Source of the DNA: a virus
IMG/VR virus record: IMGVR_UViG_3300023174_000641
Span: 1 to 23,540 of that record
Strand: one strand, 5' to 3'
Length of the DNA stretch: 23,540 nucleotides
Positions 2 through 22,692 of the stretch are shown one piece after another. Within the stretch, counting starts at the first letter, position 1. Every line of letters starts with the position of its first letter. Made by a program: the position numbers and the translations under genes. Under the pieces are notes generated by a model, which was given only the letters and a program-made list of their open reading frames with translations, had not been told where the DNA came from and made no database searches.

Positions 2-3000
2 CTAGGTTTTACACTACCAAAAAGTAGATTAGATGATAGCGGTTCGTTGTTTTTTACAGAGAGTGGTGCAATATCAAATATTGATAGAGCCAACTCAATG
101 TTAAACAATACAGGTAAAGGACAAAGGAAAGCTTTAGAAACTCAATTTAAAGCAAACTTATTAGGTATCTCAAATGATGGTAAAACTGATAACCCAGACG
201 AAACACCATTTAGAAGTGGTTATTCGCCGCTATATAAAGCTGGTGATTCTAGAAATTTTTTAGTGTCTGGTGGCAAACCAAAGTTATACGCTTTTGATGA
301 TTCACCAAACGGTGACGCTAGCGGAGCAAAAAGTGGAATTGTTAAGAATTTCTTAAAGCCTGCAACTGAAGACGAACCAATTAGCGATATGAATTGGAAC
401 CACGAAAAATTGGTTGTGGATGCTGGTTTTGTTGGACTACCTAATTCATCAAACTCAAAACCATTTGCACAAAATTTTGCATGGACATCAAATAAAGGCG
501 CGACAACAAATGTGGTTCAAGGACAAGTAGATTTAATTGATGCTGCGTTTCCAGACACCGAAAATCCTCAAATTACTGGTGAGAAAAAATCATTATTAAG
601 TAAAACACAAAAATTATTTAATAGCAAGGGCATGATGACAATGGTATCAGCATATGGTAGTGCTGATGGTAACAATAATAAAGAACAAACACAAACGTCA
701 GTATCATACAATGGTTTCATATCAAAAGGTTCTGGTGTTTTAGCAAAGGGTAAGTTCAATCCAGACGGAACTTTAGGAAATAAAACAACAAACGATTCTG
801 CTGCTAGCACTTTTTGTAGAACATGGATACCACAAAATAGATATGATACAGTAAATAAGTTAATTAGAAGTCGTGGTTTAAATCAAAAAGAATTAACAGG
901 TGGTCCAATATTAACAGGTGGAACAAGAGGTTGGAGATTACATAATTCTGAAAGAATGTCTGTTTTGGATGATAATGGATTTGTAAAAATTGCACCATAC
1001 ATAACAGATGACTTAACTAGAAGGTCAACAATACCTAAAAAATATATGTTCTCAATTGAGAATTTAGCATGGGTTGGTTCACCAGCGGTAAACTTATTAC
1101 CAATAGAACAAGGACCTGGTGACTTATTAACAGGAAAGTTTGGTAGAATAATGTGGTTTCCACCATACGACTTAACATTTAGTGAATCAAGTTCAGTTAG
1201 TCTTGAAAGTAATTTATTTATTGGTAGAGGCGAACCATTATACACATATAATAATACCGAAAGAACAGGACAATTATCATTTAAGATAGTTGTTGACCAT
1301 CCTAGCGCAATGAATGCGTTTAAGGGTAGCAGTGGCCCAAGTGATGAATATATACGTTCATGGTTTGCAGGTTGTGTTGAAGATGATTATTATACTAGCC
1401 TATTAACACAAGAAGAAAAAGAAAAAGTTAAACAAATCACTAAAACTGTTTTTGATGAAGAAACAATACCTGCAGTAGAAGCACCAAGTGAAATTACTAT
1501 TTATTTTCCTAACGATATAACAAAAATAGAAACTGTTTTAGATTGGAAATACGAGGACGGCAGCGGTGTAGGTCATGGACCATATAATGGTGAAAAACAA
1601 TATAAAAATGCGACAGATAAGACGGGATATGAGAGTCCAAACCCAAAACTTAAATATTATGCCACAAACCCCCCACCAGATTTTTATATAGGATATTGGC
1701 CAGATTCAACAAATTATGGTTTTAATAAGCCTGGTACTTCAGATACTCTTGGTAACTTAAAATTAAAAGTTCCGCCAGATAAAGAATTTGATACTTGGAA
1801 CGATGAGACATATAAGACAGCACTTAGAGATTATTTAAAAAATACGTGCCCTAGTTGTGTCGCTGAAATTGAGGGGTATGCTAGTAGCCAAGGCGGTGGA
1901 CAAACATACGCAAATGAGCAACTATCAATAAATAGAGCTGCAGCTATGAAAAAATGGTTATTGGATAACAATATTATTGAGGAGGGGAGAATTGTTGGCG
2001 CGGAAAAAACAGGTATTAAAGATGGTCAAAAATTTCCTTTTAATGAAAAAACACCCAGAGATTCTCAAGGTCCTAAGTATGCTAGATATGGTAAAATTAA
2101 ATTTAAAAATAATGCTGAAGCAATTAAAACAAAAAAACCAAGAACAATAACAGAACCTCAACAAATATCTTTAAATTCACAAGTATCTAATAGATATTAT
2201 ACTGAACAAGATTTTTTTGAAAAATTAACAAGAGAAGATTCTTTTGTGTTTGATAAGATTAGACAAAAAATAAGATATTTTCACCCAGCTTTCCATTCAA
2301 CCACACCAGAAGGTCTAAACTCTAGATTAACATTCTTATTACAATGTACTAGACAAGGCCCAACAACCAACGCAAATGAAAACCCACATAACTTAGCATT
2401 TGGTCCAGCACCAGTTTGTATTTTAAGAATAGGAGATTTTTATAATACAAAAATAATGATGGATAATTTAAGTATTGATTATGAACCATTGGTTTGGGAT
2501 TTAAATCCAGAGGGTGTCGGTGTTCAACCAATGATTGCAAATGTAACAATATCATTTAAATATATTGGTGGCTCTAGTATGTACGGCCCAATTAATAAAT
2601 TACAAAACGCTCTATCATTTAATTATTTTGCAAACTCGCAAGTTTATGACCCTAGAGCAGATTATATTGCAACTGTTGAGACAATACAAAACGAAAAATT
2701 AATTAAAAATTATCCAACAGACCCTAAACTTAGAAATAGAACAACATTTGAGTCCCAAACAAAATTAATGCCAGAGGGTACACAAGAAACAGCTTATGGC
2801 TTGGTACCAGGTCTAGATTCCGTTAATGATTCTATGGGAGCACTTGAAAATAAAACACCAACTTATGCCCCACCAACTGTAGACCAAACAGCAACTAGTG
2901 CCGAGGATAAACAACAAACAAGTCCAAATATTCAAGCCAGCGACGGCGCATCATCTTCTTGTGTAAAAGATAGGGATAACTTATATTGGGTTAATGAAAA

Positions 3001-5788
3001 TGGTGAAAAACTTAAACCAGTTCACTTTTTTGAAGGTTCTATTGGTTTTGAATTTGGATATAATGACCCAGCGGTACAAATATCGCAACCATATGATTGG
3101 TATCTTAATGTATATGATTTAAGCGATAAGAATATTGTTTATACTGCACATGAAGATGGTTTTTTATTTTATCAAAAAGATAAAACAACTTACGACCCTA
3201 AAAGAAATTCTTATGATTTTTCTGCTTCAAATTCAAAAATTTGGGGCAACAATCCACCACCACAATCATTAATTGATAGTGGTAATTATAGCGTAGCATA
3301 TAAATTAGTTGGTGTTACCGATAGTACGTGTGAAATCATATTTGATACAACAAATGAAACGATAACTAAAACAGAAACAAAATGTGATACTGATGGTCAG
3401 ATACTTTCTATTGGAATAACAGGTTCAGATACATCAAATCCAGATTTAACAGTACTTAAAGATGGTGCTAAAGGTAATTATATTTCTTTTTATATTAACG
3501 CAACGGATAAAACAATAGCCTTATCTCAAGACTACAAGTTAACTGTAACACTAGTTAGTGCCATTAATGACAACGATAGGTATGTTTGGAAAACACCAAT
3601 AGATGTACCTAGCACATTCATGAATTCAAACTCGTTACTTAATAATCTATATTTTTCAGATACAGAACCAAAAACGCCAGAGTTAATTGAGGGAAATGAA
3701 ATACCGTACAGTATTACATTTAGCTTTGTTGGTGTTACAGACCCGTGTAATTACGATATAGGTGTTGGCGCGATAACAAATTCGCAACAAGAACAAGAAT
3801 CAGCACTTAAAAAATTAATAGTAAAAGATGTAAGTTCTACCGATACAAACAAACAAGGTGGGGCTGTTAGTTTTAATCTTTATAATGACAGAGACCCAGA
3901 AAGACCACAACTTAGTGGATATAAGTTTAATGTTAAATCGACAATAAAAAGTACTGATGGTACACAACAATGGGAATATATACATCTTGACAACCTTAAT
4001 ACTGATACTGGACTTTTTTCATTTAAAACAAACACAAGAGATAACCCTCTTACAATTCTGCTTGCTAACACAACACCAGTATGTACTGGATTTACAGAGG
4101 GTAAACAATATAGCCTAGAAACATTAGTATACAACGATACAACAAAATTACAATTAAATAAAGTAATGTTAACAAATGCTGTAAATACAAATTTACAAGC
4201 GGACGCTCTGGGTGTTACTGGATTTAAGAATATTACAGTTGATAAGGTTTATAATAGCAGTACTAACAGAACAGTTACTATTTCATTATCGCAAGTGGGT
4301 ATCTTTAAAGAAGAGGGTATCACCTCAACTCAATTAATTACAGATGATGAACTTAAAGCATTTATCAATAAGAAAATTAATATAAAAATTAGATATAATA
4401 GTGAACCACCAAATGGTCATTTTGATTTAGACCAAACATTAACAGATACTGATGGCTCAATAGCTAGTGGACCAGCAGCCCTTTCATTTAAAACACTTTT
4501 AGGCGAGCCTGATAGCGCCAATGTAGCAGTAGTTAATTTCCCAGTAAATGGTGTTTATTATTTTGATTTATATTATGATAACCTATTAGTAGAAACAATT
4601 ACAACAATAAACATTGATGACAGGTCAAGTATTGAATATAATGCAAATAGTGCTGTAACACCAGCACCTACGCCACCAACACCAGTAGCTAATACTAATA
4701 AAGATGCTGATATTGTTAATGCTATTAAGATTAAAAAAATATATGCATATAAATTAGTTAATGATACGATTACGATTGAATTTGAATGGGATAAAACAAC
4801 AAACCTACAAACATTTGCATTAGAATCGTCACAGATGTACATAGGTAGAGCTAATATAATAACTAATCTAAGTGGCGTAAGAACTACATTTACTGTAAGT
4901 TCTTTAAGTGCTTACGGTAGTGCCCGAGGAATATTTAATGTTAAAAGAGACAGTGATACTTCTGTTTTATTTGGTGAAGGTGATGAAAACTATCCTTATA
5001 ATTCTTATATTAAATTAGAAAATACTGAAATAGCTACAGACCAACCTAGTGGCAAAGCTTGGCAACAAGGTAAAACTTGGACTACTATTTTATCTCTTGC
5101 CTCACCTCAGTCTCAGAATTCAAATACTGATGTAGATATAATCCTTGCAGCTCAAAAAGACCCTACTAGTATATTTGAAATAATTTGGGACACTGGCGGT
5201 AAAACAGAAATTAGTTTTTATTTAGAAAATGCACCAACAGAACCACCGAAACCACCAACACCAACACCAACATACCAATTACCATATGCTGTAACTGATT
5301 TTTATGACGTAACCACATTTAATTTTGGTAACAATTGCGACAAGTTGCATGCATTTCAAAGTACTGATGGTAGAGATGTTGGAGATATGCATATTAAAGT
5401 TCAAAAAGTTTTAAATGACTTGTATAATGCTGGAATAAACCCAACAGTTGTAGCTGTAGAAGTTGAAGTTAAAGGTCCTGTTGTTACTTGGACAGTTACC
5501 GTTGATAAAAGTACTGATGGAAAAGCTTGGGTTGGTTTCTCAAGCAGAGGAAGTGCAACTAGCTTAGCAAAAGCAAATGAAAATTATGACGGAAACCCAA
5601 ATGCAAAGCCGCCAGTTGTTGGATTGCTTGAAAATATTAAAAAGACTTTCCCATCTGACGCTAGTAGTGTAGAATTACAAGCAATAGCTGGTTTTGTAAA
5701 TATGCGCTCAACGATTGGTCAAACAAGGTGTGAATTCTGGCAAAAATTTGCTAAATACACATTACCAGTAACTAAACCACCAAAATAA
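2..5788 (+). CDS. Giant baseplate/tail structural protein with OmpA-like domain (5'-partial)
   Basis: The frame is open to the window edge without a stop, so the TTG at 47 is not a credible start and the gene begins upstream; 1928 residues are visible. Numbering from position 47, residues ~330-430 contain a block (FIGRGEPLYTYNNTERTGQLSF, around 1219-1290) typical of phage hub or tube-cap proteins, continued at ~780-870. Residues ~480-690 look like an OmpA/MotB peptidoglycan-binding domain: a first strand ITIYFPND, then IEGYASS and an N-x2-LS-x2-R helix with R630 at the diaminopimelate-binding position. Residues ~975-1600 are Thr/Asn-rich, beta-type repeated domains with sparse Cys. Pro/Thr linkers lie near 4660 and 5240. 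The gene lies 13 bp upstream of a LysM-like baseplate gene. A baseplate role is inferred from context and sequence style; the exact T4 counterpart is not clear. Confidence 0.5.
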   Translation, partial: LGFTLPKSRLDDSGSLFFTESGAISNIDRANSMLNNTGKGQRKALETQFKANLLGISNDGKTDNPDETPFRSGYSPLYKAGDSRNFLVSGGKPKLYAFDDSPNGDASGAKSGIVKNFLKPATEDEPISDMNWNHEKLVVDAGFVGLPNSSNSKPFAQNFAWTSNKGATTNVVQGQVDLIDAAFPDTENPQITGEKKSLLSKTQKLFNSKGMMTMVSAYGSADGNNNKEQTQTSVSYNGFISKGSGVLAKGKFNPDGTLGNKTTNDSAASTFCRTWIPQNRYDTVNKLIRSRGLNQKELTGGPILTGGTRGWRLHNSERMSVLDDNGFVKIAPYITDDLTRRSTIPKKYMFSIENLAWVGSPAVNLLPIEQGPGDLLTGKFGRIMWFPPYDLTFSESSSVSLESNLFIGRGEPLYTYNNTERTGQLSFKIVVDHPSAMNAFKGSSGPSDEYIRSWFAGCVEDDYYTSLLTQEEKEKVKQITKTVFDEETIPAVEAPSEITIYFPNDITKIETVLDWKYEDGSGVGHGPYNGEKQYKNATDKTGYESPNPKLKYYATNPPPDFYIGYWPDSTNYGFNKPGTSDTLGNLKLKVPPDKEFDTWNDETYKTALRDYLKNTCPSCVAEIEGYASSQGGGQTYANEQLSINRAAAMKKWLLDNNIIEEGRIVGAEKTGIKDGQKFPFNEKTPRDSQGPKYARYGKIKFKNNAEAIKTKKPRTITEPQQISLNSQVSNRYYTEQDFFEKLTREDSFVFDKIRQKIRYFHPAFHSTTPEGLNSRLTFLLQCTRQGPTTNANENPHNLAFGPAPVCILRIGDFYNTKIMMDNLSIDYEPLVWDLNPEGVGVQPMIANVTISFKYIGGSSMYGPINKLQNALSFNYFANSQVYDPRADYIATVETIQNEKLIKNYPTDPKLRNRTTFESQTKLMPEGTQETAYGLVPGLDSVNDSMGALENKTPTYAPPTVDQTATSAEDKQQTSPNIQASDGASSSCVKDRDNLYWVNENGEKLKPVHFFEGSIGFEFGYNDPAVQISQPYDWYLNVYDLSDKNIVYTAHEDGFLFYQKDKTTYDPKRNSYDFSASNSKIWGNNPPPQSLIDSGNYSVAYKLVGVTDSTCEIIFDTTNETITKTETKCDTDGQILSIGITGSDTSNPDLTVLKDGAKGNYISFYINATDKTIALSQDYKLTVTLVSAINDNDRYVWKTPIDVPSTFMNSNSLLNNLYFSDTEPKTPELIEGNEIPYSITFSFVGVTDPCNYDIGVGAITNSQQEQESALKKLIVKDVSSTDTNKQGGAVSFNLYNDRDPERPQLSGYKFNVKSTIKSTDGTQQWEYIHLDNLNTDTGLFSFKTNTRDNPLTILLANTTPVCTGFTEGKQYSLETLVYNDTTKLQLNKVMLTNAVNTNLQADALGVTGFKNITVDKVYNSSTNRTVTISLSQVGIFKEEGITSTQLITDDELKAFINKKINIKIRYNSEPPNGHFDLDQTLTDTDGSIASGPAALSFKTLLGEPDSANVAVVNFPVNGVYYFDLYYDNLLVETITTINIDDRSSIEYNANSAVTPAPTPPTPVANTNKDADIVNAIKIKKIYAYKLVNDTITIEFEWDKTTNLQTFALESSQMYIGRANIITNLSGVRTTFTVSSLSAYGSARGIFNVKRDSDTSVLFGEGDENYPYNSYIKLENTEIATDQPSGKAWQQGKTWTTILSLASPQSQNSNTDVDIILAAQKDPTSIFEIIWDTGGKTEISFYLENAPTEPPKPPTPTPTYQLPYAVTDFYDVTTFNFGNNCDKLHAFQSTDGRDVGDMHIKVQKVLNDLYNAGINPTVVAVEVEVKGPVVTWTVTVDKSTDGKAWVGFSSRGSATSLAKANENYDGNPNAKPPVVGLLENIKKTFPSDASSVELQAIAGFVNMRSTIGQTRCEFWQKFAKYTLPVTKPPK

Positions 5789-5801: not shown

Positions 5802-6122
5802 ATGCCAAGATATTTCGACAGATACGAAGAATTTAGAAGTAACGACAAGATGAAGCCAATACCTGGTCTTACATTAACACAAACAAACGGTGATAAAACC
5901 GTATTATATAAATTAGGCGAAACAAGGCTTGACAAACTAAGTAATACGTATTATAATTCACCATACTTTGGTTGGTTAATAATGTCTGCAAACCCACAAT
6001 TTGGTGGTTTAGAGTTTTTAATACCTGACCAAACAATAATCGTTGTACCGTTTCCTTTTGAGGATGCAATAAGCAGATACATACAACTAGTAAACAGTTA
6101 TAAACTACTTTATGGGGGATAA
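5802..6122 (+). CDS. LysM-like baseplate wedge protein (gp53/tail protein X type)
   Basis: A 106-residue protein. Residues ~33-86 read as a LysM-like fold used in phage baseplates: a short strand (VLYKLGETRLDKLS), a helix ending in YYNSPYFGWLIMSANP, a glycine turn, then a proline-flanked strand (LIPDQTIIVVPFPF). The pattern 'D-x-L-S/A-x-x-Y-Y... W-L-I-x-x-A-N-P' is characteristic of the phage X/gp53 LysM group, which joins baseplate parts and does not necessarily bind peptidoglycan. The residual C-terminus is a short helix. The gene sits between two giant tail genes (13 bp after the first, 26 bp before the second), consistent with a baseplate cluster. No Shine-Dalgarno sequence is visible before the ATG. 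The family call is fairly secure; equivalence to T4 gp53 rather than another LysM baseplate protein is inference. Confidence 0.7.
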   Translation: MPRYFDRYEEFRSNDKMKPIPGLTLTQTNGDKTVLYKLGETRLDKLSNTYYNSPYFGWLIMSANPQFGGLEFLIPDQTIIVVPFPFEDAISRYIQLVNSYKLLYGG

Positions 6123-6148: not shown

Positions 6149-9100
6149 ATGGGTAGATTTAGCATAGTTAACCCAAACAATTTTGATTATCAATATAATG
6201 GTGGTATGTTTGGCAATACAAATTATAATATGTCTGTACCGCCAGAAGAACTGTGTATTATTGTTGAATTGGTTACAACACAAAAAGCAAGAAGTGTATT
6301 AATTAACAATACCCAAAACGGCACAATATCAACAAAAAATAGTGACGGTAATAGATTCGTAAGCTTTATTAATGGTAAAAAAGACGGAACCACAGGTTAT
6401 GGTAATTTCCTAACAACTAGCTACACTGATTTAGGAACTGAAAACATCATCGAGGAAGCACTAGGTATTACCAATATTCAGGTGGAATTTAACTCATCAT
6501 ACGCACCAATGGTTAATATAGATTTTGTTGACGTTAGAGGTGGTGCAATTTTTCAATCTGGCGCAAAGTCAATCTATAATGTTTTATTTAGATTACCATA
6601 TCCATTATTCGAATTAAAAATCAAAGGGTTTTATGGTAAACCAGTTGTATATTGTTTACATATGGTTAAATGTAATACTAAATTTAATTCACAAACTGGT
6701 AATTTTGAGATTAGTGCAAATTTTGTTGGTTATACATATGCAATGTTTTCAGATATGATTCTTGGATATCTTAGAGCTGCTGTTAGAACAAAAAGAGGTG
6801 AAGAGTTATTAGCTAGCAAGGGTACGATTTCTATTAATGAATTCATGAAAAAAATGAATAATATTGATGAGTTAGTAAAAAAACAACTAGAAAACACATC
6901 AAATGTAAATAGAAATAACGTAGCATTAGTAAATGAATTGCAGGCTGATTTAAATGCTATTGAGAGTTTAGTGGATAGTTATATTGCGGACCTTAAAGAC
7001 CCAACAATATGCGAGGCAATACTTGGAGATACAACCGAGCCTTATCAAAATAGTATTGTTTTTTTTCCAGACCCAAATTCTGCAGACCCAAATAGCTTTA
7101 CTAACTCAAAGGCTAGTAAAATTAGTAGTAAATTTAAAAAAGAATATAAAGCAAAACGCGATGCATACAATACAAAAGTTGGCAATTTATTGAGTGCAAA
7201 ATTAATAGTAACAGATATAGTTCCTGGCGCTGCGCTATCAAAATCAAATGAATTAATTGGGCCAACTGGTGGACCTAATAACGCCGATTTAGTTGATAGT
7301 ATAAAACTAAATTATGGTGATTTAATAGACATTAATAACAATGATGTAATTAACAATGTGATAAAAAGATTGCAAAATGCGGCACCGAAAACATTATCAC
7401 CTAGTGATGCATATATTGAAGTTTTCGATGTTACTGAGACTAGGGGTTTCATACAAAACGCTAGAACAGAATTAACAAAGTCACAGAAAAATTTTACAGA
7501 TGCATTAGCAATTGATATAGCAAACGCAATTGAAAGCGAATTAACATTTGAACCAAATATAAGGAATATATTTAAAATGTTTACGGCACATATTGAAATA
7601 TTCCTACAATTAGTTTTTGAGGTGTCTTCAAAATATTTAGACGATGCTAGAATTAATGAACTTAAAAAGTTTAGGTCAAAAGACCTAACTAATCAAAGAT
7701 TAGATATTAAAAAAACCGATGACGCTGTAATATATCCATGGCCAGAATATATTGAAAATGATGAAGAAAAATATCTTGGTTCTGCGGGTGTTCTTGAAAT
7801 ACCACTTAATGTACCAGAGGTTAAATTTGTCGAAGAACTATATACAGCTATGGTTCAAAATAATAGAGAAGATAAAGAGGTGCAAGCCAATGCAAATGGT
7901 GTTGTGGCTTGGCAAGCGTTCAACCCAATTGACTCGATTAATTCAATACCAGATAAGACCCCGTATGATAGATTACCAGATAGCGCAACACATAATGATG
8001 TTGCTAGACTTATTGTTTTAAGAGCTGTCGGTGTATTGGGTTGGCAACCTAGTAACTTAATTGATGATAAAGAAATAGAATCGTTTGCGACATCTGAAGC
8101 AGAGTTAATAATTAAAAAATACGAAACAAATAAAATTATTTTACCAGCATTAACTAGTAACTATGAAAATGTTGACAAATATTCTGCGGTAAAAGGAACT
8201 GTTGACGGTACAGAAAAAAATCTACTATCAGCATCTACATATAATAATATTGACCATTGGGATTATAAATATATTGAAATACCATTTAAAGGAGGTACTC
8301 CTTTTAATAGATACGAAATACCTGCTGATAAAGGTTTTACTGACATAACTAAGCCTTATTATAGTAATTATTCTGATTTTAAATTATCAAATAGGTCAGG
8401 AAATGTAAAATATGATAATAATGCTGAAACCGCAGATACTGCAAAATATATTAGTATTATTGGTTCCAGTGATTACGATAACGCAAATTCGCAATCACCA
8501 ATAGCTAGAGGTCCTAGTATTTTTAAATATGATAACCTAACTAACGAAATGAATAAACCAGAGGATTTAATAAACGCTGATTTTTTTCTTAGTAATGGTA
8601 AGTATGGTGTTCAAGAATATTCACTTGTTGATTTTTCATCAAAATCTGAATATGGTGCTGGTCAGTTAAGTTATCATAGCATTTTTTATGATAACCCATT
8701 AATTGAAAATGGCTGGGAAGGCATTGAAAATGGATTATCAACACCAAGAATTAATAAAGAAACACCTCTTGACTTAACTTTTTCTGGTGGTGCATTTGCT
8801 GCTTATACTTTTGAAAATATAACAACAAGTGAATATGTTGATACTTTTATACCTGGGGAAAGATATAACATACTTTCAAATAACCACCAATCAGTTGGTA
8901 AAAATATAACATTGTTTTCAAACGAAACAACACAAGACCAAGTCGCTTTTCCTTTTTTTAATTTTGGTGCACAGACTTCTAAATATTCTTTTAACTTTTC
9001 ATTGTTTGGTAGTAGGTTATATAACGCACAAACAAGTGTTTATCCAAAAGCTTTTTTATTTTTACATTGTTTTCCTTGGAAAGGATTAGTCGGAAAATCG

Positions 9101-12100
9101 TCAAGGTCCGATGGTAAGACATATGTAACAGTAACACACGATATTGGTATTTTTAAACAAAAAGAAATTTTTAATACGTTTGCTATAAGAAATGGATTTG
9201 TTAAAGTTCCAAAATTATGGCCAGCATTTATAGGCTCTTTAATTTGGAGATATAGAGAAGGATTAGCAAAAAACAACCCAGTAAAATTTAAAATAGGTAA
9301 CGAATCTTTAATCCCTGGGTTTAGTACCGATGACGATGATTATCCAAAATACGATGAATATTTAAAAGCGTATCCAGATGTTTATTCATATCAAACATCT
9401 AAAACACAATTAAATATTTTTGGGTTACCAGTTGCAACTGGTAACGACGCTTTAAACGATAACCAAAGCAATTTTCCAATGTTTTTTTGTGATAGACTTG
9501 ATATGAATTATGAGAAAATCGACCCAGAAATTTTAGCGTTACCACCAAAAGTTCAAGATTTATTTGTTAGTGAATTTGACACATTTGTTAAAGGGGAGTT
9601 TACAAATGATATTATACCACTTTTGGATATAACCAAAGGGGACGGAACGGCATTTTTTGGCGATAGCCAGTGGAAAGCGCAATGGGATATATTAAGAAGT
9701 AGCACCGTTGTTAAAACTGATGCAAAATCTTTGGAAGAATATAATGTTAATGGTTCATATACTGAGATAACTGTTAACACACTTGCCAAAATGAATGAAT
9801 TATATGGTAATAAATTAAATATTGGTAAATTAGAAGATAACTATTCGGTTATGACATATATTTACTCACCAACAAATGGTAAATTTGATTATAATTTATT
9901 TATTGAATATAAACAAAATGGCCCAGCTGAAAAAAAATTAAAAGACTTACTTTTTTCATATAAATATATTGAAAACGATTCAGTATTTATATGGTCAAAC
10001 GGTATAACAAATACAAACCCAACACCTGCATTTCTTAAATCTAAATTTTCTAAATATATTGACACCATTAACCAAGCGTTAAAGACCAAGGTTACTGAAG
10101 ACCAAAAAACAATAGTATCACCAGGTGAAAATGAAAAAATTAAATTGGAAATATATAGAACAGTTAAAAAAATATATGACAAATGGGTTGCTGGCGTTGG
10201 TGGTAGCCCTAGACCATTTAGCGATATATTATTTCAATGCTGCTCTAGAGGTACAAATCAACCATATAGATTAAGTGGTGATACAGCAATTAATGCTAAA
10301 TATGGTAATGGAAAACCTAACGAATTAAATCTTATTGATAGCTTTAGATTTGTTACTAGGTCATTTCAAGATATTAGTACTCAATTTCAAATACATCCTG
10401 TTATGGTAACACATCAAATGTATGAGAGCCCCGATACTAGTATTTATGATTTATTTGGTAGAATATTAACTGATAATAATTTTGAATTTATTGCCCTACC
10501 AAATTTTATTAATTTTAATGACCCTAAAGAATTGCATTCTGTTTTTGAACCTTATCCTTATTATATGGCACAAAAACAAACAGCAACAGGCCCATCATTT
10601 GTTTGCGTATATGTTGGGCAAACATCTACTAAACTAGATTTTGGGCCAGATTCAGAATACCCTAATGATGGTTTTGATATTACAAATGATAAAACATGGC
10701 CAAAAGATTTTAGCGAAGAAAAAGCAAGTTGGGAAGATTTTGCGTCAGCTTTTATTGTTAGCTATGGGCAACAAAACCAAAATATATTTAAAGATATCAG
10801 ACTTGACCAATCAGAATTTAATGAAACTGCTGAATCGTTATCAATAACAGATGCAATATCAAACTCATTAAGTTCTACAAATCAATCATATGTTGGTCAA
10901 AATCTATATAATGTTTATTCTGTAAGAAGTTATAAAGCTGAAGTTGAAATGCTTGGTAATGCAATGATTCAACCAATGATGTATTTTCAATTAGATAATA
11001 TACCAATGTTTCATGGTGCTTATTTAATCACAAAGGTAACTCATAGTATTGTACCAAATAATATGACAACTGTCTTTACTGGTACAAGAATTAGAATAGC
11101 AAAAACACCACTAATAGATAAAGCAACACTATATTCTTCTTTGATATCTGGTCAAGAAATTGGTGGAGCAACAGCTGGTAGTACAATAAAGTATACCCCA
11201 ACTCAATTATTAGCACCTATTGCTGCGACAATATTTAGAAATGAAGGTCAAAACGCATATTTGAATCAAACAAATAATCAAATAACAATGAAAAAAGTTG
11301 CTGCACCTAACGGTGTTGGCAATCTTAAAGCTGGTACACAAGTAGATGCGCCAGCCCCAGACAACGAAAACGAACTTAATGAATCATTAATAACAGAAGC
11401 TGCAAATGCATTAGAAAAAATGTTAACAGATTTTGTTGCATACGCAAAACAAAATAATTATAAAACATTTAGTAGTGGAAACTATATCAATATTACTAGC
11501 TTATATCGTAACGCAACAAAACAAGCAAATTTAGTAAAAGATAATATAAAAAACAAAAAACCCGCTGGTTCTGTTGCCGCTGTTGGAACTTCTTATCATG
11601 GATGGGGATTGGCTGTGGACTTACAAACAATAGATGCTAATGGTAATGCGTTACAAATATCAACTGATGCTGATAATTTAAAAAGAGGTTTTGACCAAAA
11701 TATAAACATATCACTAAAATGGTTTTTAGAAAATTGTTGGAGATATGGGTTCTGGATGCCACTTAGCTTGAGAGATGGTAGTGGTGTCGAAGAGTTTTGG
11801 CATTTTGAATATCACGGAACAACAGCAATATGCTTATGGGAAAAATACCCACAAGTCAATAATCCGAATAATATTGTAAAAATACCAACAAATCCACAAT
11901 ATGACCCAGTTGTAAAAAATCCTAAAGAACCAGACGGAAAAGAAGCTGTTTATAACGGTTGTGATTTTGTTGAGGTTAAAGGGACTGCAAATTACGATAT
12001 GTTATCATCAGATTTACTTTGGATATATCTCTCATGGCAACAAGGTATCGGAGGTGCTGTACAGCATTACAAAATTTCTAGTGGTAGTATGGCATCGTAT

Positions 12101-13258
12101 ACTAACGATGTACCACCTACAAATATTATAAGTAATTGGCCAGGTAGTTTAGTATCAGATAACGGCGTTAAAAAATCTGATATTTCAACACTATACAGCT
12201 CAAACCCTCAAAAACTAGCTAATGCATTTATTAATGTATGGTCTAAAACTATAGCCCAAAAAGCAGCAGAATCACAAACACTAATCAATAGCAACAAAAA
12301 TGATAGATTAGGTAAACCGTATTTAAGACTTAAAGATATTTTTAAAAAATACGAACAACCAAATGAAGGGTTTTCAATTGATAATATCATTACGATGGGA
12401 TATATTGAAAATGGATTACTAACAGATACGGCACCAAGTGGCCAAGACGGTGGTAGCTATGCTGGCATGTTTCAAATGGGAAAAGCATACGACGTATATA
12501 AACCATATATAACAAGGTCATCTAAAGGTAAAAGTGGGTATTTAAATTTTGACGAATACGATATAGATATAATGACAGAAGGATTTGTTAAAGTAGGGAT
12601 AGATAATTTCAATCAATTTAAAAAATTAAGTGGTTACAATCCGCAAGCATTAAATTCATCAACACAACCAACTTCAACCAATTCACCAACAACATTAAAA
12701 AATATTATAATTGGTGATTCATTAGTAACTTGTTTAGAATCAATTTTAATAACTGCTGGTTCTTCTGCAAGAAGGATTTCACCAACTCAAAGCGAGGCAT
12801 CATTACATTTTGGTGGTAAAGATACTACATGGTTAATAGGTGCACTTAAAAAATATCCAGTAAGCACTGGGGTAGAAAATGTTGTGGTGTCAATAGGTAC
12901 TAATGACGGGTTTCAAAACTCAAACAATTTAATAAAAGTGCTAACAGAACTTAGAAGAGTATTTCCAAATGCAAAATACCTATTTGTCAGAGGAAGTGGT
13001 GGGTGGATAGGAAATATAAAATATAAACCTAATGGGGATATAAAAAAAATATACGGTACAACATTAAATGGTACGACAACTTATGATAACACTGACGTCA
13101 TATCATATTATTCTGTATTAAATGGTCAACCAAATGTTACAGTTTTAAATCAAGGCGTTGGTTATTCAGCATCAGACGGTGAAGCACATAATTGTACTGG
13201 CCCTTACAAGTTACACTATCCTGTACTGGCAAATGAAATTAAATCTAAAATTGGATAA
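6149..13258 (+). CDS. Baseplate hub/spike protein with M15 peptidase, transglycosylase-like and SGNH hydrolase domains
   Basis: A 2369-residue protein. Residues ~100-225 and ~1580-1650 resemble phage hub (gp27/VgrG/gpD-type) regions; the latter has the 'SYKAEVEMLGN...FHGAYLITKVTHSI' pattern. The C-terminal third carries enzymes. First is an M15 (VanY-like) zinc peptidase: R1787, then H1817-x2-G-x-A-x-D1824, then E1882-F-W-H1885, matching both zinc His, zinc Asp and the general-base Glu. Next is a lytic-transglycosylase-like stretch with E2087 (MGYIENGLL) and GSYAGMFQMG (2102-2111). After a Ser/Thr/Pro linker comes an SGNH hydrolase: GDS with S2191, GTND at 2250-2253, and D2343-G-E-A-H2347. 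Likely substrates are peptide and glycan bonds of peptidoglycan, plus an acyl or acetyl ester. The domain calls come from motifs; the hub role is inferred from position and the conserved hub stretch. Confidence 0.8.
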   Translation: MGRFSIVNPNNFDYQYNGGMFGNTNYNMSVPPEELCIIVELVTTQKARSVLINNTQNGTISTKNSDGNRFVSFINGKKDGTTGYGNFLTTSYTDLGTENIIEEALGITNIQVEFNSSYAPMVNIDFVDVRGGAIFQSGAKSIYNVLFRLPYPLFELKIKGFYGKPVVYCLHMVKCNTKFNSQTGNFEISANFVGYTYAMFSDMILGYLRAAVRTKRGEELLASKGTISINEFMKKMNNIDELVKKQLENTSNVNRNNVALVNELQADLNAIESLVDSYIADLKDPTICEAILGDTTEPYQNSIVFFPDPNSADPNSFTNSKASKISSKFKKEYKAKRDAYNTKVGNLLSAKLIVTDIVPGAALSKSNELIGPTGGPNNADLVDSIKLNYGDLIDINNNDVINNVIKRLQNAAPKTLSPSDAYIEVFDVTETRGFIQNARTELTKSQKNFTDALAIDIANAIESELTFEPNIRNIFKMFTAHIEIFLQLVFEVSSKYLDDARINELKKFRSKDLTNQRLDIKKTDDAVIYPWPEYIENDEEKYLGSAGVLEIPLNVPEVKFVEELYTAMVQNNREDKEVQANANGVVAWQAFNPIDSINSIPDKTPYDRLPDSATHNDVARLIVLRAVGVLGWQPSNLIDDKEIESFATSEAELIIKKYETNKIILPALTSNYENVDKYSAVKGTVDGTEKNLLSASTYNNIDHWDYKYIEIPFKGGTPFNRYEIPADKGFTDITKPYYSNYSDFKLSNRSGNVKYDNNAETADTAKYISIIGSSDYDNANSQSPIARGPSIFKYDNLTNEMNKPEDLINADFFLSNGKYGVQEYSLVDFSSKSEYGAGQLSYHSIFYDNPLIENGWEGIENGLSTPRINKETPLDLTFSGGAFAAYTFENITTSEYVDTFIPGERYNILSNNHQSVGKNITLFSNETTQDQVAFPFFNFGAQTSKYSFNFSLFGSRLYNAQTSVYPKAFLFLHCFPWKGLVGKSSRSDGKTYVTVTHDIGIFKQKEIFNTFAIRNGFVKVPKLWPAFIGSLIWRYREGLAKNNPVKFKIGNESLIPGFSTDDDDYPKYDEYLKAYPDVYSYQTSKTQLNIFGLPVATGNDALNDNQSNFPMFFCDRLDMNYEKIDPEILALPPKVQDLFVSEFDTFVKGEFTNDIIPLLDITKGDGTAFFGDSQWKAQWDILRSSTVVKTDAKSLEEYNVNGSYTEITVNTLAKMNELYGNKLNIGKLEDNYSVMTYIYSPTNGKFDYNLFIEYKQNGPAEKKLKDLLFSYKYIENDSVFIWSNGITNTNPTPAFLKSKFSKYIDTINQALKTKVTEDQKTIVSPGENEKIKLEIYRTVKKIYDKWVAGVGGSPRPFSDILFQCCSRGTNQPYRLSGDTAINAKYGNGKPNELNLIDSFRFVTRSFQDISTQFQIHPVMVTHQMYESPDTSIYDLFGRILTDNNFEFIALPNFINFNDPKELHSVFEPYPYYMAQKQTATGPSFVCVYVGQTSTKLDFGPDSEYPNDGFDITNDKTWPKDFSEEKASWEDFASAFIVSYGQQNQNIFKDIRLDQSEFNETAESLSITDAISNSLSSTNQSYVGQNLYNVYSVRSYKAEVEMLGNAMIQPMMYFQLDNIPMFHGAYLITKVTHSIVPNNMTTVFTGTRIRIAKTPLIDKATLYSSLISGQEIGGATAGSTIKYTPTQLLAPIAATIFRNEGQNAYLNQTNNQITMKKVAAPNGVGNLKAGTQVDAPAPDNENELNESLITEAANALEKMLTDFVAYAKQNNYKTFSSGNYINITSLYRNATKQANLVKDNIKNKKPAGSVAAVGTSYHGWGLAVDLQTIDANGNALQISTDADNLKRGFDQNINISLKWFLENCWRYGFWMPLSLRDGSGVEEFWHFEYHGTTAICLWEKYPQVNNPNNIVKIPTNPQYDPVVKNPKEPDGKEAVYNGCDFVEVKGTANYDMLSSDLLWIYLSWQQGIGGAVQHYKISSGSMASYTNDVPPTNIISNWPGSLVSDNGVKKSDISTLYSSNPQKLANAFINVWSKTIAQKAAESQTLINSNKNDRLGKPYLRLKDIFKKYEQPNEGFSIDNIITMGYIENGLLTDTAPSGQDGGSYAGMFQMGKAYDVYKPYITRSSKGKSGYLNFDEYDIDIMTEGFVKVGIDNFNQFKKLSGYNPQALNSSTQPTSTNSPTTLKNIIIGDSLVTCLESILITAGSSARRISPTQSEASLHFGGKDTTWLIGALKKYPVSTGVENVVVSIGTNDGFQNSNNLIKVLTELRRVFPNAKYLFVRGSGGWIGNIKYKPNGDIKKIYGTTLNGTTTYDNTDVISYYSVLNGQPNVTVLNQGVGYSASDGEAHNCTGPYKLHYPVLANEIKSKIG

Positions 13259-14530: not shown

Positions 14531-15337
14531 ATGGCTAAGAAAATTAATCAAAAATTACTAAACGAAGAGCTTAAAAAATTTAGACTCTTATCTGAATATT
14601 CGTTTTATACTGAAGCACCAAAAGGAGAAGATGATTTAATCTTAGGCGCTGTAGACGAAGCTGATGAAGAACCAGTTGATGATTCAAAAACTGCTGCAGC
14701 AGGCGCTGAAGCAGGTGCCGAAGCTGGAGCAGAAGCTGGGGCAGAGGCGGGAGCCGATGCTGGTGCAGAAGCTGGTACTGATGATTCAAATATGTTTGGA
14801 ACTGAAGATGATGGGACTGAAGACAATGACGCAAATGCTGGAACCGAAGATGCTGGAACTGAAGATGCTGGAACTGAAGATGCTGGAACCGAAGATATGG
14901 GTGCTGAAGATACTGGTGGAGAAGAGGAAGTTGATATTGATGTAACCCAACTAGTTAAGGGTAGTGAAGAAGCAAAAAAAGCAGCTGATTTAAGTTTTTT
15001 AAAAACAACAGAACTTTTAAATAAATTTAATGATTTAGAACAAAGAGTTGCTGCTATGGATTCAATATCTAGTAAAATCGATACACTTGAAAAAGAAATT
15101 GTAAAAAGAAACCCAACACCTGTAGAAAAATTAGAAATGAGGTCTATGGATTCTTTCCCATACAATATAAAATTAACTGATTATTGGAAAGACGTTAATG
15201 GATATGATGCAACTGGAGAACAACAACCAAAAGAATACATCTTGAAAAAAGATGATATAGATACAGGTGGTGTTGTAGATACATCAATTAAAAAAACATT
15301 TGATGTTCCAGAAGATTACGAAGAAGAAGATATATAA
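14531..15337 (+). CDS. Acidic protein with EAGA and GTEDA tandem repeats; possible virion or scaffold protein
   Basis: A 268-residue, strongly acidic protein. Residues 1-35 form a basic/helical head (LNEELKKFRLLSEYSFYTEAP). Residues ~55-83 are a run of four-residue EAGA-type repeats, and residues ~103-132 are five-residue AGTED repeats, giving an unstructured, negatively charged middle. Residues ~145-200 are helical with a likely coiled coil (LLNKFNDLEQRVAAMDSISSKIDTLEKEI). The tail (~205-268) contains a conserved-looking SFPYNIKLTDYWKDVNGYD and ends in acidic EDYEEEDI. One base separates it from the preceding small gene, and a strong terminator follows. The acidic, coiled-coil make-up would suit a prohead scaffold or a structural linker, but no family was recognised; function is inference. 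Confidence 0.75.
   Translation: MAKKINQKLLNEELKKFRLLSEYSFYTEAPKGEDDLILGAVDEADEEPVDDSKTAAAGAEAGAEAGAEAGAEAGADAGAEAGTDDSNMFGTEDDGTEDNDANAGTEDAGTEDAGTEDAGTEDMGAEDTGGEEEVDIDVTQLVKGSEEAKKAADLSFLKTTELLNKFNDLEQRVAAMDSISSKIDTLEKEIVKRNPTPVEKLEMRSMDSFPYNIKLTDYWKDVNGYDATGEQQPKEYILKKDDIDTGGVVDTSIKKTFDVPEDYEEEDI
14708..14779 (+). repeat. 12-bp in-frame tandem repeat (EAGA units)
   Basis: Six consecutive degenerate 12-bp units of the form GAAGCTGGAGCA, starting at 14708, 14720, 14732, 14744, 14756 and 14768. A weaker related unit precedes them at 14696. Differences fall mainly in third codon positions, so the Glu-Ala-Gly-Ala product is nearly constant. Confidence 0.9.
14837..14926 (+). repeat. 15-bp in-frame tandem repeat (AGTED units)
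   Basis: Four near-identical 15-bp units (GCTGGAACYGAAGAT) start at 14837, 14852, 14867 and 14882; units 2 and 3 are identical. Two decayed units follow to 14926. They encode Ala-Gly-Thr-Glu-Asp. Confidence 0.9.
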
Positions 15338-20715: not shown

Positions 20716-22692
20716 ATGGATTTATCAACAAAAATTTTATCTGACATTACCGTACATATGAAATACGCTAAGTATATGCCAGAGCTACAAAGAAGAGAAA
20801 CTTGGGAAGAGTTAGTAACAAGAAACAAAGAAATGCACAAGAAAAAATATCCGCATATTACGGATGAAATTGAAGCTGCATATGAATTCGTTTACGCGAA
20901 AAAAGTATTACCATCAATGAGGTCATTACAATTCGGTGGAAAGTCTATTGAGATTAGCCCAAATCGTATATATAATTGTGCGTATTTACCGATTGATGAT
21001 TATAGAGCATTCAGCGAAACTATGTTTCTTTTATTAGGTGGAACAGGTGTTGGATTTTCAGTACAAAGACATCATGTGGACCAATTACCAGAGATTAGAA
21101 AACCTAATACAACTAGAAGTAGAAGATACCTTATCGGTGATTCTATTGAAGGGTGGGGAGATGCGATTAAAATATTAATGAGGTCTTACTTTGAAGGTAT
21201 GTCAACACCTGATTTTGATTACTCAGATATTCGCCAAAAAGGTGCATTATTAGTAACTAGTGGTGGTAGAGCACCTGGCCCACAACCACTTAAAGATTGT
21301 ATTCACAATATTAAAAAAATATTAGACACAAAAAATGATGGTGAAAAATTATCACCGATTGAATGTCATGATATTATTTGTTTTATTGCTGATGCAGTAT
21401 TAACTGGTGGTATTCGTAGAGCTGCTCTTATTTCATTATTCTCAATTGATGACGAAGAAATGTTATCGTCTAAATCTGGCGCATGGTGGGAATTAAATCC
21501 ACAAAGAGGTAGAGCAAATAATTCAGCTGTTATCTTAAGACATAAAATAACTGAAGAAAAATTCTATCAATTATGGAAAAAAATTGAAGATAGCAATTCA
21601 GGTGAGCCAGGCGTATATTTCTCAAACGATAAAGATTGGGGTACAAACCCTTGTTGTGAGATTGGATTGAGACCATTCCAATTCTGTAACCTTTGTGAGG
21701 TTAATGTGTCAGATATTGAATCACAAGAAGATTTGGAGGCTAGAGCTAAAGCAGCATCGTTTATTGGAACGTTACAAGCTGGTTATACTGACTTTCATTA
21801 TCTTCGTGATGTATGGAAGCGTACAACAGAGAAAGATGCCTTAATTGGCGTTGGAATGACAGGTATTGGGTCTGGAGAGGTACTTAAATATGACCTAGAA
21901 TTAGCAGCAAAAGCCGTATTGAAAGAAAATGCTAGAATTGCTAAATTAATAGGTATTAATAAGGCAGCTAGAACAACTACAGTAAAACCATCTGGAACTA
22001 GCTCATTGGTGTTGGGTACAGCATCTGGAATACATGCTTGGCATAATGATTATTACGTTCGTAGAATACGTGTTGGTAAAAACGAATCAATATACACATA
22101 CCTTTCAATCTATCACCCAGAATTGGTTGAAGACGAATATTTCAAACCAAAAGAACAAGCGGTAATCTCATTACCTGTAAAAGCACCAGATGGTTCTATT
22201 TACAGATTTGAATCACCAATGAATCTATTAGAAAGGGTGAGTATGTTTAATAAAGATTGGGTTGGAACTGGTCACAGAGATGGTCAAAATACACATAATG
22301 TATCAGTTACTGTTTCTATCAAAAAAGAAACCGAAAAATTATCTAAATTAGATGAAAATGGTAAAGTTGTTTTAGATTCAAACAATAACCCAATCAAAGA
22401 AGATAGAAGAGACGAGAAAGGAAATTTAGTATATAAAATAAACGAATGGCCAATGGTAGGAAAATGGATGTGGGAAAATCGTGAATCATTTAACGGTATT
22501 TCGGTATTACCTTATGATGGAGGAAGTTATATTCAGGCTCCTTTTGAAGATTGTAATAAAGAAAAATATGAAAAAATGATGGAAGTTTTACGCGATATTG
22601 ACTTAACAAAGGTTATTGAGGTAAGCGACACAACCAATTTATCTGGTGAAGTAGCTTGCGGTGCTGGAGGTTGTGAGGTCACAACAGCATAG
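20716..22692 (+). CDS. nrdJ: Adenosylcobalamin-dependent (class II) ribonucleoside-triphosphate reductase
   Basis: A 658-residue enzyme that reduces ribonucleotides to deoxyribonucleotides using coenzyme B12. Active-site residues match the monomeric Lactobacillus enzyme: first redox Cys C88 (YNCAYLP), radical Cys C313 with E315 (NPCCEI), second redox Cys C324 exactly 11 residues later, and the C-terminal swinging pair C648-x4-C653 (CGAGGC). Further family motifs are GGTGVGFSVQRHH (108-120), GGIRRAAL (231-238) and the phosphate-binding KPSGTSS region near nt 21990. It is shorter than the 739-residue Lactobacillus enzyme but appears complete. It works on oxygen-independent chemistry, so dNTP supply would depend on host or scavenged cobalamin. 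It ends the replication block before a strong terminator. Confidence 0.93.
   Translation: MDLSTKILSDITVHMKYAKYMPELQRRETWEELVTRNKEMHKKKYPHITDEIEAAYEFVYAKKVLPSMRSLQFGGKSIEISPNRIYNCAYLPIDDYRAFSETMFLLLGGTGVGFSVQRHHVDQLPEIRKPNTTRSRRYLIGDSIEGWGDAIKILMRSYFEGMSTPDFDYSDIRQKGALLVTSGGRAPGPQPLKDCIHNIKKILDTKNDGEKLSPIECHDIICFIADAVLTGGIRRAALISLFSIDDEEMLSSKSGAWWELNPQRGRANNSAVILRHKITEEKFYQLWKKIEDSNSGEPGVYFSNDKDWGTNPCCEIGLRPFQFCNLCEVNVSDIESQEDLEARAKAASFIGTLQAGYTDFHYLRDVWKRTTEKDALIGVGMTGIGSGEVLKYDLELAAKAVLKENARIAKLIGINKAARTTTVKPSGTSSLVLGTASGIHAWHNDYYVRRIRVGKNESIYTYLSIYHPELVEDEYFKPKEQAVISLPVKAPDGSIYRFESPMNLLERVSMFNKDWVGTGHRDGQNTHNVSVTVSIKKETEKLSKLDENGKVVLDSNNNPIKEDRRDEKGNLVYKINEWPMVGKWMWENRESFNGISVLPYDGGSYIQAPFEDCNKEKYEKMMEVLRDIDLTKVIEVSDTTNLSGEVACGAGGCEVTTA

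Follow-up and report, generated by a model that had tools for sequence, protein, structure and literature searches.

The window, a 23.5-kb fragment (23,540 nucleotides) from an uncultured virus, encodes a 2369-residue protein which is probably the central hub of a contractile phage tail, with three enzymes hung from its C-terminus at the tail tip, in a phage probably of Flavobacteriia. The chain ends in an M15 zinc peptidase, then a middle domain bearing a lysozyme-like motif, and last an SGNH hydrolase.

The Hub-Like Protein and Its Gene Neighborhood

The whole ORF occupies positions 6149..13258 of the plus strand. The residues named in a preliminary description of this DNA (H1817, D1824, E1882, H1885, E2087, S2191, GTND 2250-2253, D2343, and H2347) were all found at their places, and AGMFQMG lies at 2105. 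The window stems from an uncultured source, and the three-enzyme ORF might thus be a chance fusion or an assembly artefact of adjacent genes. However, a full-length homologue of identical architecture, with 85% identity to the window, was present in contigs of three other samples (L001-L003, which represent one population with identical tails). This recurrence refutes an artefact of assembly and, together with the reordered version in L107, means that such an origin can practically be dismissed. Between the window and L001, dN was well under dS in each module. The dN/dS ratio was about 0.17 in the core, 0.20 in both the M15 and the SGNH domain, and 0.19 in the second half of the middle domain, while the N-terminal half of the latter was the fastest-evolving part with about 0.40. 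These values (about 0.17-0.40) indicate that purifying selection maintains all modules as proteins.

The conserved core comprises residues 1-1668 (6149..11152, plus strand). Relatives of it were found in 228 IMG/VR loci, of which 80 were fetched, and the core was present in these 80 with a mean column identity of 34% over 18 diverse members. The ORF directly upstream (5802..6122, plus strand) encodes a 106-aa baseplate protein which matched the baseplate wedge family phrog_7145 (E = 0.0058), and a relative of it stood directly before the hub in 57 of 58 loci. Ahead of this lies a 1928-aa structural-type protein (2..5788, plus strand) whose 5' end is lost at the contig edge; its relative accompanied the hub in all 37 of 37 loci. 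An OmpA-like stretch was noticed in this protein (residues 610-665; window 1829-1996, plus strand) with an E-value of 2e-4, under the Pfam cut-off. As OmpA domains bind peptidoglycan, the baseplate may have a second contact with the wall.

Profile searches of the hub protein returned weak "tail protein" matches, comparison of its core with the PDB gave only weak and unhelpful matches to a coiled-coil-like stretch, and neither kind of search yielded a strong family match for the core. The term hub is therefore inferred from position and gene order, and the identification made in the preliminary description stands as far as the gene order fits it, while strong family evidence did not emerge.

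The genes behind the hub encode a single-strand binding protein, a UvsX-like recombinase, an exonuclease, a DnaB helicase, and a ribonucleotide reductase, followed by gp25- and gp6-like baseplate genes. This order largely matches that of the cultured Flavobacterium phage immuto, in which the position of the hub is occupied by a 938-aa protein with VanY at its end. Besides M15, five window proteins clearly matched their immuto counterparts (36% for the RecA-like protein and 27% for DnaB), which indicates that the two phages are distant relatives. From the shared gene order and these protein matches, a host in the Flavobacteriia is likely. The ribonucleotide reductase (window 20716-22689) was closest to that of a Microcystis phage (63%) and also resembled those of Vibrio and Oceanospirillum phages. 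It differs from its neighbor genes in this affinity, and a horizontal gain is possible. A 268-aa protein (window 14531-15337) carries a long acidic EAGAEAG/GTEDA repeat.

The M15 Peptidase and the SGNH Hydrolase

The M15/VanY zinc peptidase domain covers residues 1776-1890 (11474..11818, plus strand). It matched Pfam PF02557 with an E-value of 1.4e-12 and scored 47.9 bits against VanY, far over the cut-off of 25. Both zinc-site motifs, SxHxxGxAxD and ExxH, were complete at H1817, D1824, E1882, and H1885, and with all four metal-binding and catalytic residues in place the M15 assignment is confirmed.

The SGNH domain closes the protein (residues 2184-2369; 12698..13255, plus strand). In an alignment of 17 homologues, the GDS motif (S2191), G2223, the GTN motif (N2252), and H2347 were invariant, which corresponds to blocks I, II, III, and V. 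An AlphaFold model of the domain reached a pLDDT of 78.9 and a pTM of 0.81. Foldseek aligned this model with 13 PDB chains at E < 0.001, all of them platelet-activating-factor (PAF) acetylhydrolases or putative relatives (E = 5.3e-6 and probability 1.00 to PAF-acetylhydrolase, with TM-scores of only about 0.5), in agreement with the SGNH (flavodoxin-like) fold. The domain of the window itself had no direct Pfam match; among its homologues, L102 was over the Lipase_GDSL cut-off and L026 just under it. The invariant residues, the fold match to SGNH acetylhydrolases, and the Pfam-positive homologue L102 thus bear out the SGNH assignment.

D2343 had been proposed as the catalytic acid, a role which the alignment does not bear out. 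This residue lies four positions before H2347; among the homologues the acid stands at -4, at -2, or at a greater distance, some lack one, and the canonical DxxH acid at -3 occurred in none of the 17 sequences. The D of GTND is also frequently replaced by G. Some SGNH enzymes operate as Ser-His dyads. As judged from the alignment, Ser and His of the domain are well supported as putative catalytic residues and the acid is not.

A tblastn search with the SGNH domain of the window found it in no deposited phage, and a search of genome contigs with a single pattern confirmed no bacterial SGNH-family relatives. Stand-alone SGNH relatives occurred in L084-L088, L094, L096, and L100, most of them with a short N-terminal leader of the KIKITE type and with GTNG replacing GTND.

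The Middle Domain

Between the two lies the middle domain (residues 1949-2165; 11993..12643, plus strand), which consists of a half with SWQQG...GA.QHY followed by a half with E2087...MFQM. Homologues were found in L001-L003, L107, L115, and L101/L116. Across five aligned sequences, E2087 and MFQ were invariant, as were SWQQG and NWPG in the half ahead of E2087. A Glu followed by a G-M-F-Q-like motif, as in SLT/lysozyme-like transglycosylases, is present, a motif that is weak by itself. The domain had no match in Pfam, PHROG, or the PDB sequences, and its predicted model had no fold match; one good model of five was obtained, and its moderate quality (pLDDT 74.2) limits the fold search. In a comparison with other tail modules by hhalign, even known lysozyme groups failed to find each other, so that its outcome carries no information on the domain. 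The SWQQG half precedes the Glu half, and a circularly permuted lysozyme was considered; the domain was still without a match after the halves were swapped. Of the transglycosylase proposed earlier, E2087 and AGMFQMG are thus in place, and no family or fold match confirms the assignment. Its conserved motifs suggest that the middle domain may be a candidate glycan-cutting enzyme of a new family, as yet unproven.

A C-Terminal Swap Slot

The tails which follow the core were compared in 59 distinct relatives. Four were shorter than 100 aa, 11 had 233-302 aa, 39 had 412-494 aa, 4 had 640-712 aa, and one was cut by the contig end; the tail of the window has 715 aa. The lengths of these 59 tails rise in steps, at about 55, 270, 450, and 640-715 aa. 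A third module is not required for such hubs generally, since about 55 of the 59 tails lack three modules. In 55 tails, Pfam recognized VanY (30), Phage_lysozyme2 (10), Hydrolase_2 (9), DUF2272 (7), SLT (7), M23 (6), and T4-type lysozyme (3). Almost every recognized module was a peptidoglycan hydrolase, and in individually inspected tails the peptidase (VanY, M23) usually came first and the glycan cutter second.

At the end of the hub, the SGNH domain was found with three types of partner: M15 and the middle domain (window and L001-L003), Phage_lysozyme2 (L004/L017), and another, Pfam-negative module (L026, L061, L102, and L109). In L107, a similar core is followed by SGNH, then M15 motifs (SWHGAGLAIDV and ELHHFEF, for which Pfam gave no confirmation), and then the middle domain. 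This locus (L107:3-10115) encodes 3371 residues in one hub-type ORF, whose 5' end is still open. In a second distinct hub-like family, the SGNH domain forms the C-terminal end in L099, and in L101 the hub is split into two ORFs, of which the first carries SGNH and the second the middle domain. These results indicate that the C-terminus of the core is a swap slot for zero to three modules, which are gained, lost, reordered, and replaced, and that SGNH was joined to hubs several times. This pattern of shuffling fits separate tools that are useful jointly and in any order.

In L012, L034, L053, and L066, M15 is present and the last module is an alpha/beta-hydrolase-like domain with GFSxGG and an invariant His, which had weak PDB matches to esterases. 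Among viral contigs, this domain was seen mainly or only in hub tails. Its presence also bears on whether the C-terminal modules other than M15 have lost catalysis and serve as binding or structural domains, as the missing conserved acid in SGNH, the lack of an enzyme match for the middle domain, and the fast evolution of the N-terminal half of the latter (dN/dS of about 0.4) could suggest. We consider such a loss improbable, because 17 divergent SGNH sequences all retain Ser, Gly, Asn, and His, and other hubs have an unrelated serine-hydrolase-like domain in the same place.

Possible Mode of Action

If the protein acts as a three-enzyme hub, contraction of the sheath would drive the tail tip into the envelope, where the M15 domain would cut peptide stems or cross-links and the middle domain would cut the glycan strand. 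The SGNH esterase would strip acyl groups, most likely acetyl, which block one of these two steps or decorate envelope sugars, and the swap slot presumably fits the enzyme set to the host wall. That the enzymes act jointly on the envelope, as the preliminary description had supposed, gained strength from the same set in another order in L107 and from SGNH and the middle domain on neighboring proteins in L101. The esterase that it named is supported as an SGNH enzyme, for which peptidoglycan de-O-acetylation is only one of several possible uses.

Alternatively, the SGNH domain would have acylated capsule, lipopolysaccharide, or lipid as its target, at the outer membrane or outside, and would open the way to the wall, and the other two modules alone would act on peptidoglycan. 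PAF-acetylhydrolases and a sialic acid esterase as the closest folds would suit this role, as would the stand-alone SGNH-domain relatives in other phages and the SGNH domains carried by receptor-binding fibers of other phages (PMC10684548; PMC11058221). We regard it as rather unlikely, since the hub-borne SGNH domain adjoins peptidoglycan enzymes or lysozyme-like modules in nearly all cases. More tentatively than the three-enzyme hub itself, we propose that these phages cross the envelope with the help of a dedicated ester-cleaving step, for which two unrelated serine-hydrolase folds would have been recruited convergently into one hub slot, together with a new, unnamed family of glycan-cutting domains (1949-2165).

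The C-terminus of the hub is a natural record of the wall enzymes that can be borne and joined together at a tail tip. It also offers modules which can be put to the test, one of them a domain without a named relative. An active esterase would show that phages face acyl groups on the wall or envelope as a barrier at entry, in Gram-negative hosts as well.

Comparison With Known Systems

In phage T4, gp27/gp5 form a contractile-phage tail tip with a muralytic enzyme, in which hub and lysozyme are separate proteins and one enzyme is present. A search of the window's relatives for PF09097, run without a positive control, gave no match. The comparison with T4 gp5 made in the preliminary description holds for the muralytic tail tip and missed a closer precedent, the Tal protein of the Staphylococcus phages phi11 (Gp44) and 80alpha (gp59). 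Tal is gp27-like and has a C-terminal SGNH/GDSL domain at the tail tip, whose activity is not established there (PMC4876445; PMC7048315). The window protein shares with Tal a hub-like part followed by a C-terminal SGNH hydrolase. In contrast, Tal belongs to siphophages of a Gram-positive host, has 633 aa, and lacks an M15 or glycan-cutting module of its own in the chain.

The Immutovirus protein immuto35A_237 (QQO92155.1) of a Flavobacterium phage shares the gene order and a C-terminal M15/VanY domain with the window. However, it has 938 aa, a core without detectable homology to that of the window, no SGNH domain, and no middle domain. The two-domain virion-associated lysins CwlP, HydH5, and phi11 Gp49 likewise unite more than one cell-wall enzyme in a single virion protein (PMC5380687), and they differ from the window protein in having two lytic domains and Gram-positive hosts. 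Domain shuffling has been reviewed for tail proteins and endolysins (PMC10684548). A Gram-negative contractile hub with M15, a glycan cutter, and SGNH was not found in the open-licence literature. What is new beside Tal is the set of three modules, their presence in a phage with a contractile tail and a host that is probably Gram-negative, and the exchange slot, in which two unrelated folds seem to serve a third position for ester cleavage.
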